A DNA stretch of 39,817 nucleotides. Origin: Dehalococcoidia bacterium. GTDB taxonomy: Bacteria > Chloroflexota > Dehalococcoidia > SM23-28-2 > HRBIN24. Positions 30,869-36,763 of this stretch are shown here, in pieces. The translations under genes were made by a program, and so were the position numbers. Positions within the stretch are counted from its first letter, which is position 1. Each line of letters begins with the position of its first letter. Location of the stretch: the NCBI GenBank assembly GCA_025062275.1, contig JANXAP010000026.1, positions 1 to 39,817 of the forward strand. Reading direction: 5' to 3'. Under the pieces are notes generated by a model, which was given only the letters and a program-made list of their open reading frames with translations, had not been told where the DNA came from and did not search any database.

Positions 30869-30897
30869 TTGACACGGTAGGCGGTTGTGGATATATT
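30869..30897 (+). promoter_or_regulatory. Promoter of ilv-leu operon
   Basis: TTGACA (30869-30874), exactly 17 nt and TATATT (30892-30897), nearly perfect sigma-70 consensus. Transcription would start around 30904, right at the T-box leader. Confidence 0.8.
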
Positions 30898-31133
30898 AGG
30901 AAGTTGAACCGCGTCCATAGGGTAAAGGCGACGAAGGGGAGTAGTAAGGGCGAGACCTGCCCCCAGCGAGCCGGGGACGGTGGAAGCCCGGCGGCAAGGA
31001 CGCCCCGAACTCGCCCCGGAGCCTCCCGGTCGAAAGGTCATCGACCGACCCTCACGAGTAGGCCGGGACGGGTGCGCCCGTTAAAGCGCTAGAGGGCCCC
31101 AGGCCAGAAGCCTCGGGGAAGAAGGGTGGTACC

Positions 31134-31166
31134 GTCCCGCCCTGCGGGGTCCCTTCAGGGCGGGAC
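31134..31166 (+). terminator. Terminator-like hairpin 1 of the T-box leader (no U-tract)
   Basis: A perfect 11-bp stem, GTCCCGCCCTG (31134-31144) with CAGGGCGGGAC (31156-31166). It competes with an equally clear antiterminator: AAGGG (31122-31126) with CCCTT (31151-31155) and CCCGC (31136-31140) with GCGGG (31144-31148). The next bases are GTTCCATTAC, so intrinsic termination here should be poor. Confidence 0.6.
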
Positions 31167-31210
31167 GTTCCATTACTGGCCTGGGGAGGAAGGGTGGTAC
31201 CGCGCGGACG

Positions 31211-31244
31211 AAAAGTCCCGCCCCTTCGGGGTCGGGGCTTTTTT
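31211..31244 (+). terminator. Terminator 2 of the T-box leader
   Basis: AAAAGTCCCGCCCC (31211-31224), a TTCG tetraloop and GGGTCGGGGC (31229-31238), followed by TTTTTT; one C/U mismatch. The competing antiterminator uses AAGGG (31190-31194) with CCCTT (31222-31226) and GGAC (31206-31209) with GTCC (31215-31218). This is the functional attenuator 19 nt before the ilvD start. Confidence 0.88.
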
Positions 31245-31262: not shown

Positions 31263-32984
31263 ATGACCGGCGAAAAGGGACGCTACCGTAGCAACGCCGT
31301 CAAGACGGGGCCCCAGTGGGCACCCCACCGGGCCATGTATCGGGCCATGGGCCTCAGGGACGAGGACATCTACCGCCCCTTCGTGGGCGTCGCCTCCTCC
31401 TGGAACGAGGCCACCCCCTGCAACCTTCACCTGGACCGGCTGGCCAAGGCGGCCAAGGAGGGCGTCCGCGCCGCCGGGGGCACCCCCAGGGAGTTCGTGA
31501 CCATAGCCGTCTCCGACGGCATCGCCATGGGCCACCAGGGGATGAAGGCCTCCCTGGTCTCCCGCGAGGTCATCGCCGACAGCGTGGAGCTGATGATGCA
31601 CGCCCATCAGTACGATGCCCTGGTGGCCATCGCCGGCTGCGACAAGTCGCTGCCCGGCATGGCCATGGCCATGGCCCGCCTGAACGTCCCCGCCATCTTC
31701 GTCTATGGCGGCACCATTATGCCCGGACGTTACCGGGGACGGGACGTGACCATCCAGGACGTGTTCGAGGCAGTGGGCGCCTACGCCGCCGGCCAGATAT
31801 CAGACCAGGACCTCTACGAACTGGAGTGCTCCGCCTGTCCCAGCGAGGGCTCCTGCGCCGGCATGTACACCGCCAACACCATGGCGGCGGCCATGGAGGC
31901 CCTGGGCATCGCCCTGCCCGGCAGCGCCTCGCCCCCCGCTCCGTCCCGCGAGCGGGACGAAGTGGCGCGGGAGAGCGGCCGGGCCGTGATGCGCCTGCTG
32001 GAAATGGAGATACGGCCGCGGGACATCCTCACTCGCAACGCCTTCCTGAACGCCATCGCCGTGGATGCGGCCGTGGGCGGCTCCACCAACGCTGTCCTGC
32101 ACCTGCTGGCCATCGCCCGCGAGGCGGGAGTGGAGCTGACGTTGGACGACTTCGACCGCATCGCCCGGCGGACTCCCCACATAGCCGACATGCGCCCTGG
32201 CGGCCGCTATGTGATGCTCGACCTGCACCGGGTGGGCGGCATCCCCAGGGTCATGAAGGAACTGCTGGACGCCGGCCTCATCGACGGCGACTGCCTGACG
32301 GTCACCGGCCGCACCGTACGCGAGAACCTGGCCGACTTCCCCCTGCCCGACATCCAGCAGGACGTGGTGCGGCCCGTCAGCGATCCCATCAGCCCCACCG
32401 GCACCATCTGCGTCCTGCGCGGCAACCTGGCGCCCGACGGGGCAGTGGTGAAGACGGCCGGCGTCCGTCACCTGGTCCACACCGGCCCTGCCCGCGTCTT
32501 CGACTCGGAGGAGGACGCCTTTGCCGCCATCTCCCAGCGGCGCATCCGTCCCGGGGACGTGGTGGTCATACGTTACGAGGGTCCCAGGGGCGGGCCCGGC
32601 ATGCGGGAGATGCTGGCCGTCACTGCCGCCCTGGTGGGCCAGGGCCTGGGCGAGCAGGTGGCCCTCATCACCGACGGACGTTTCTCGGGCGCCACCCGCG
32701 GCCTGATGGTGGGCCACGTGGCCCCCGAGGCCATGGTAGGCGGCCCCATCGCCCTCCTCCAGGACGGCGACGAGGTCACCATAGACGTCCCCAGCCGCCT
32801 CATCGAGGTCCGGGTGCCGCCGGAGGAGATGGCCCGCCGAAGGGAGGCGTGGACGCCGCCTCCGCCGCGCTTTCCCTGGGGGGCCCTGGCCAAATACGCT
32901 TCCCTGGTAGGCTCCGCCGCTCAGGGCGCCGTATGCCCCCCGTTGCTGGGGGTGACCACTAGAGGCCAGGAGCGTATGGGGTGA
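31263..32984 (+). CDS. ilvD: Dihydroxy-acid dehydratase IlvD
   Basis: IlvD dehydrates 2,3-dihydroxy acids to 2-keto acids, the third step of valine and isoleucine synthesis and a precursor step for leucine. A 573-aa protein with the three cluster cysteines of the family, Cys53 (EATPCNLH), Cys126 (AGCDKSLPG) and Cys198 ([15 protein letters not shown]), so it is an Fe-S enzyme. The C-terminal domain ([36 protein letters not shown]) is complete. ATG at 31263 follows AGGAGGAAGG. First gene of the T-box-controlled operon; ilvB follows after 40 nt with its own AAGGAG. Confidence 0.95.
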
Positions 32985-36334: not shown

Positions 36335-36763
36335 ATGGGCAGGCCCAAGGCTAGCCAAGAGTTCATCGACATGCTCAACGAGGCCCTGTCGGAGGAGATG
36401 GCTTCCATCTTCCAGTACATGTGGGACCACATACTGGCGCGGGGGATGGAGAGCCCGCCCATCGCCGAGAAGTTCAAGGAGCTGGCCATGACCGAGATGC
36501 GCCACGCCTACATGCTGGCCGAGCGCATCGACCTGTTGGGCGGCACCCCCACCACCAAGGTGGGCGAGATAAAGATCGGCGGCGACCTGCGCCAGATGGT
36601 CGAGGACAACCTGGAGCTGGAATACGAGGCCATCGCCATGTACCGGCGCCTCATCAAGCAGGCGGAGAAGGAGGACGACCCGGCCACCCGCCGCCTGCTG
36701 GAGGACATCCTCAAGGACACCGAGGAGCACGCTCGCGACCTGGAAAGCATTTTGGGGAAGTAG
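36335..36763 (+). CDS. Ferritin-like / bacterioferritin-type protein inside the ilv-leu operon
   Basis: A 142-aa four-helix protein of the ferritin-like superfamily. Expected di-iron ligands are Glu in NEALSEEMASIFQY (helix A), Glu and His in EMRHAYMLAERI (helix B, E-x-x-H), Glu in ELEYEAIAMYRRLI (helix C) and Glu-x-x-His in KDTEEHARDLE (helix D). This is the bacterioferritin/DUF2202-like arrangement. It sits 9 nt after ilvC with a good AGGAGG and before leuA, so it is under the T-box. It is the only gene of the operon with no biosynthetic step. Storage or delivery of iron for the Fe-S enzymes IlvD and LeuC is a reasonable inference. Confidence 0.85.
   Translation: MGRPKASQEFIDMLNEALSEEMASIFQYMWDHILARGMESPPIAEKFKELAMTEMRHAYMLAERIDLLGGTPTTKVGEIKIGGDLRQMVEDNLELEYEAIAMYRRLIKQAEKEDDPATRRLLEDILKDTEEHARDLESILGK

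Follow-up and report, generated by a model that had tools for sequence, protein, structure and literature searches.

How can a T-box leader with a single Stem I serve two discriminator modules placed one behind the other? This question is raised by the leader of ilvD in the window, that is, the whole 39,817-nt stretch of Dehalococcoidia DNA analysed here. Vitreschak et al. reportedly described duplicated terminator-antiterminator elements in 2008. A 2020 review names the partially tandem T-boxes, in which one Stem I is followed by at least two discriminator/terminator modules, and states that their mode of action is unknown (PMC7583486). The window and its relatives have this same layout, and the double module itself is thus not new, being the mark of a described class. 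The results below concern Stem III, for which the leader encodes one 5' strand and two candidate 3' partners, such that either discriminator might be completed in turn.

One Stem I and two discriminator modules

The leader before ilvD is a genuine leucine-specific transcriptional T-box (Table 1). A covariance search with RF00230, which the sequence-only reading had proposed for counting Stem I elements, gave a single match at gathering level (30922-31157, 96.4 bits against a threshold of 93); it contains the sole Stem I, and its 3' end is module 1. The putative promoter ends at 30897, compatible with a transcription start near 30904. Specifier, tRNA and genes agree with one another, as the class demands: the codon is CUC, the same genome encodes a tRNA-Leu(GAG) whose A73-CCA end matches the UGGU of both modules, and ilv/leu genes lie downstream, beginning with the ATG of ilvD at 31263. 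The same leader stands in front of ilvD relatives that are 84-93% identical. The branched-chain amino acid gene run also includes a small ferritin-like ORF between ilvC and leuA (36335-36763). The only other T-box that RF00230 finds in the genome is a single-module leader in front of a trpB-like gene (L002, G000:C21:7392-7657). Six-frame ORFs that span the leader were set aside as mechanical.

Table 1. Features of the ilvD leader and its surroundings (positions in the window)
Feature	Position	Strand	Evidence
Putative sigma-70-like promoter, TTGACA-17-TATATT	30869-30897	+	consensus 11/12; 0.0 expected in shuffles
Stem I, single copy; AGUA/GAA specifier loop, apical AGCGA..GGUG loops	30922-31018	+	RF00230 alignment; 88/97 identical to HRbin24
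Specifier codon CUC (Leu), read by tRNA-Leu(GAG)	31010-31012	+	GAA-CUC-G in RF00230 alignment
Stem II and IIA/B region	31019-31088	+	RF00230 alignment
RRRxG purine string AGAGG, precedes Stem III; single copy, common to both modules in the proposed model	31091-31095	+	sequence; motif per PMC7583486
Stem III 5' strand CCCCAGGCCAG, predicted to pair locally (31097-31104) or distally (31097-31107)	31097-31107	+	folds; inverted repeat
Local Stem III 3' strand GCCTcGGGG, separated by 5 nt from the module 1 GGGTGG downstream	31110-31118	+	-12.3 kcal/mol; C-G to U-A in HRbin24
Module 1 antiterminator: A1 31121-31126/31151-31156, T-box UGGUACC 31127-31133, A2 31135-31140/31144-31149	31121-31156	+	constrained fold -15.9 kcal/mol
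Module 1 competing hairpin, no U-tract, followed by UUCCAUUA	31133-31167	+	-30.0 kcal/mol; U-tract score 2.06
Predicted distal Stem III 3' strand CTGGCCTGGGG, separated by 5 nt from the module 2 GGGTGG downstream	31176-31186	+	perfect 11-bp inverted repeat; compensatory change in HRbin24; offset-5 rule across leaders
Module 2 antiterminator: A1 31189-31194/31222-31227, T-box UGGUACC 31195-31201, A2 31202-31209/31215-31221	31189-31227	+	constrained fold -18.8 kcal/mol
Module 2 intrinsic terminator, U6 tract 31239-31244	31210-31244	+	fold -26.7 kcal/mol (hairpin 31210-31243); terminator scan match
ilvD, first gene of the run ilvD-ilvB-ilvN-ilvC-(ferritin-like)-leuA-leuC	31263-32984	+	ORF translation

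The sequence-only reading had described one Stem I followed by two T-box sequences 68 nt apart, each with its own antiterminator and its own competing hairpin, and a U-tract in module 2 only, and all of this was borne out. The first T-box core (GGGTGGTACCG) starts at 31124 and the second at 31192, and a 20-nt direct repeat of 95% identity has the same spacing of 68. Under constrained folding both antiterminators pair GAAGGG with CCCTTC and have, in addition to an inner helix, a UGGUACC bulge of 7-8 nt, and in both modules antiterminator and terminator are mutually exclusive in silico. Module 1 has a U-tract score of 2.06 and module 2 one of 4.22; the former is, together with that of HRbin24, the lowest of the 53 leaders scored, among which a module 1 lacking a U-tract occurs in this genus only. 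A further pairing concerns the first T-box: once hairpin 1 has formed, its GGUGG (31125-31129) can pair with CCAUU (31170-31174). This pairing resembles a built-in CCA end, and it is seen in the window and HRbin24 only, the two being identical.

With ordinary RF00230 T-boxes the leader shares Stem I with its specifier, the Stem II region, the order RRRxG-Stem III-AA, an antiterminator with a UGGN bulge, an intrinsic terminator and a branched-chain amino acid operon; it differs from them in that a further discriminator and terminator follow the first, and in that the Stem III 5' strand has two predicted 3' partners. Unlike partially tandem T-boxes that have a U-tract in each module it lacks that of module 1, and its class assignment rests on module number. 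Fully tandem T-boxes (e.g. in trp operons and thrS; PMC12452182) would likewise apply serial tests to the charging state of one tRNA, but they have a Stem I in each unit; no second Stem I was found here, with one RF00230 match and a 68-nt period too short to hold another. A single Stem I means a single anticodon contact, hence the suggestion that two tRNA acceptor ends are captured found no support.

One Stem III 5' strand and two candidate 3' strands

In T-boxes, Stem III follows the purine string RRRxG and is itself followed by the AA that precedes the antiterminator; the 2020 review describes the RRRxG motif and its necessity (PMC7583486). The local Stem III of the window is formed by CCCCAGGC and GCCTcGGGG (31097-31104/31110-31118). 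The same 5' strand begins a perfect long-range stem, which the sequence-only reading had taken to be 10 bp long (31097-31106/31177-31186) and which in fact comprises 11 bp (31097-31107/31176-31186). Its energy was reached by none of 200 dinucleotide shuffles (p 0.005, the floor of the test). Since its 5' arm is the ordinary Stem III 5' strand, and since the spacing to GGGUGG is 5 nt at both modules, the long-range stem is best described as an alternative Stem III. Thus, the modelled folds make it a well-supported second Stem III, mutually exclusive with the local one and holding module 1 in its loop. No RRRxG purine string precedes the distal strand in the sequence.

In RNAfold predictions for the growing transcript, the local Stem III persists until position 31176 is reached, and from 31187 onwards the distal 11-bp stem has formed. 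Compared with the state devoid of the distal stem, the distal state is more stable by about 12 kcal/mol in the window and about 11 kcal/mol in HRbin24, these being energies for 37 C that leave out tRNA, tertiary contacts and kinetics, while the growth temperature is probably higher.

Conservation of the distal stem

The exact leader of the window is carried by two sequences only. Its closest relative, HRbin24 (G001, same genus), has the same layout and keeps the distal stem. The two leaders are 88% identical overall, with 58/58 identical positions in module 1, 88/97 in Stem I, 21/29 in the stretch of the purine string and Stem III, and 55/60 in module 2; outside module 1, 227/267 positions are identical, and the chance of 58/58 is about 1e-4 at 85% identity. 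Module 1 is, by this sequence comparison, the best-conserved part of the leader. In HRbin24 the 11th distal pair is changed from G-C to C-G: the only change in the distal arm, C to G at 31176, is accompanied by G to C at 31107. Position 31107 lies in the loop of the local Stem III, so this compensatory change cannot be put down to the local stem. At the third pair, C-G is replaced by U-G in the distal stem and by U-A in the local one, so that both stems survive. The comparison of related ilvD leaders that had been proposed as a check thus returned a conserved module 1 and a conserved distal stem with a compensatory change.

More distant ilvD leaders vary in module number. The genome G007, of another family, has both modules and a distal stem of 5 + 7 bp around one bulged A, different in sequence and the same in position. 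Both modules are also present in three genomes of a third family (G004, G008 and G010), before a 50%-identical ilvD paralogue; in their leaders (L038-L040) the UGGC of module 1 mismatches A73 of tRNA-Leu, and module 2 has UGGU. Two genomes of the same family as the window (G002 and G003) have a single module of module-1 type with a U-tract, and in the single-module ilvD leaders of family f4 the module is mostly of module-2 type. The simplest reading of the ilvD tree, offered as a suggestion only given inner supports of 80-82% and the presence of the paralogue, is an old double module followed by different single losses. The ilvD leader of G045 (L004) has T-box cores 172 nt apart, which is too long for the partially tandem class and shorter than the usual full tandem.

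A pattern scan of 84,980 genomes gave at least 120 stretches. Among the matches listed, the fetched loci included about 50 real double or triple modules, from Negativicutes, Alicyclobacillus, Paenibacillus, Lysinibacillus/Priestia, Clostridia, Synergistota and Chloroflexota, and, judging translations by eye, a variety of genes lies downstream of them (NSS- and SSS-type transporters, DAHP synthase, amino-acid-binding protein, diaminopimelate decarboxylase, ilvD and ilvN). Further searches gave matches, some of them not T-boxes, in 14/183, 43/300 and 6/261 genomes. The test set comprised 95 non-redundant leaders in 48 sequence clusters from Synergistota, Negativicutes, Bacilli, Clostridia and Chloroflexota. 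Nine of the 95 partially tandem leaders have three or four modules. The median U-tract score is 4.57 in the first and in the last module, and most partially tandem leaders are strong in both. Three leaders of Bacilli (L295, L296 and L299) carry four discriminator modules of 88-89 nt behind one Stem I, and related three-module leaders precede an NSS-family transporter gene.

Across the class, an anchored comparison of helix energy with shuffles gave a combined p of 1.5e-5 over 24 clusters for the distal helix, and 1.4e-7 for the local Stem III, which served as the positive control. An offset scan took the best anchored helix that the Stem III 5' region can form with the linker: in 46/95 leaders the end of this helix lies exactly 5 nt before the GGGTGG of module 2 (about 4 expected). 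By cluster, the offset-5 helix is best in 20/48 (about 2 expected), and 16 of these 20 have no comparable hairpin of their own; a narrower first version of the scan gave 42/95 leaders and 17/48 clusters. In the other 28/48 clusters the offset-5 helix is not the best, and some leaders there have either a complete second copy of Stem III or a different helix. A different loop-out helix (e.g. GGAACACC/GGTGTTCC) is seen in leaders of the Dialister type (L084, L130 and L153): here the distance from the end of the 3' arm to module 2 is 16 nt in place of 5 nt, and a GAGCG-like purine motif comes after this arm.

In a fixed register, with no fitting, the cells of the distal Stem III are paired at 90% in Synergistota, 87% in Negativicutes and 100% in Bacilli; when the register is slid by 1-3 nt, 23-68% are paired. 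Double changes affect 4/7 pairs in each of Synergistota (15 cells) and Negativicutes (22 cells), 37 cells in total, a cell being a sequence and not an independent event. In Negativicutes it is the distal Stem III that co-varies (ATCTGAT/ATCAGAT, ATCCGA/TCGGAT, ATCGAT/ATCGAT), the local one being weak. An anchored search for RRRxG with a local hairpin found both in 31/53 leaders, several groups having a weak local Stem III. Without an anchor, the energies of duplexes that the upstream region forms with the linker reached p<0.05 in 6/58, and contiguous helices in 7/58; this test has little power and mixes in Stem IIA/B and G+C effects, and was therefore dropped in favour of the anchored, offset and fixed-register tests. 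Taken over these phyla, the pattern of pairing and covariation indicates that the distal helix is under selection. The earlier proposal that the long stem excludes module 1 and brings Stem I near module 2 thus gains from the compensatory change in HRbin24 and from the covariation in other phyla, whereas its view of a separate spacer helix gives way, the 5' arm being the normal Stem III 5' strand.

A proposed strand exchange and the alternatives

The established or well-supported parts are one Stem I, two foldable modules, a local and a distal Stem III that exclude each other, and a distal helix that is conserved and co-varies. The account we favour, and hold to be probable though far from certain, joins them in a co-transcriptional exchange of Stem III strands by which module 1 would pass the end of one tRNA on to module 2. 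The tRNA-Leu would stay bound on Stem I throughout. As polymerase advances, the 5' strand would first pair with the local 3' strand, and discriminator 1 would be completed around the acceptor end of the tRNA. Once the distal 3' strand emerges, the longer helix would displace the local one and release module 1 as a closed loop, so that the same Stem III would be rebuilt, with the same purine string, right next to module 2. There the same tRNA would be tested again, and the U-tract terminator would make the final decision. Genera with U-tracts in both modules would have two terminating tests; in this genus the first would no longer terminate efficiently. Such an exchange in time and hand-over of the tRNA end may bring the benefit of two serial tests, with lower leak and a sharper response.

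An unlikely alternative makes module 1 a sensor and not a terminator, with its result passed on to terminator 2. With uncharged tRNA, antiterminator 1 would form, and the 3' strand of hairpin 1 (31158-31166, GGGCGGGAC) would be left free to pair with the 5' strand of terminator 2 (31215-31223, GTCCCGCCC), blocking that terminator; with charged tRNA, hairpin 1 would sequester its 3' strand and terminator 2 would form. Such a relay would account for a hairpin 1 that has no U-tract and is nevertheless 100% conserved, and the cross-complementarity (12 nt, 92%) is present in 6/6 double leaders of the order, at -19 to -24 kcal/mol. However, single-module leaders outside the order share GTCCCGYCCC/GGGRCGGG (G048), so that the cross-pairing arises from common motifs without selection, and it would form a pseudoknot with the distal Stem III. 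The conservation of module 1 might possibly reflect either this blocking of terminator 2 by the freed strand or closure of the module 1 T-box by the internal CCAUU.

Two ordinary terminators in series, with independent modules of which the first is a weak terminator or a pause, are less probable still. The long stem would then be a passive side effect of a duplication that took in module 2 and the 3' half of Stem III. Most partially tandem leaders do have strong U-tracts in both modules, and some contain a complete second Stem III (e.g. L087 and L143). Duplication of the Stem III 3' half could indeed give rise to the distal complementarity, but it explains neither the pairs that take in loop nucleotides of the local Stem III, which co-vary in HRbin24 and in L245-type leaders, nor the double changes, which like the 5-nt offset across phyla need selection. 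That module 1 is a decayed duplicate or a structural spacer, its U-tract lost and module 2 alone at work, is very improbable: the low U-tract score common to HRbin24 only, and the GGUGG/CCAUU pairing that would give a closed domain after hairpin 1, speak for it, but module 1 is identical throughout in two species whose leaders otherwise differ, and its T-box, A1 and A2 are intact.

A full-text literature search, outside which the 2008 Vitreschak paper fell, found no description of a shared Stem III, and in the literature so covered a shared, co-varying Stem III is undescribed. Extended to partially tandem T-boxes as a class, a shared Stem III that exchanges strands and hands one tRNA between discriminators, at up to four stations, is a tentative proposal that we regard as doubtful as a whole; in the genus of HRbin24 the first station, once a terminator, would have become a non-terminating checkpoint or relay, and an internal CCA-like strand would later close its T-box. 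Leaders of this kind would escape covariance models that, like RF00230 here, end with the first module. The strand exchange favoured above would explain how module 2 has access to Stem III and a purine string though one copy is encoded. One 5' strand able to complete either discriminator offers a concrete and testable answer to how partially tandem T-boxes work and, if true, would mean that an RNA can re-test the same tRNA several times during its own synthesis.
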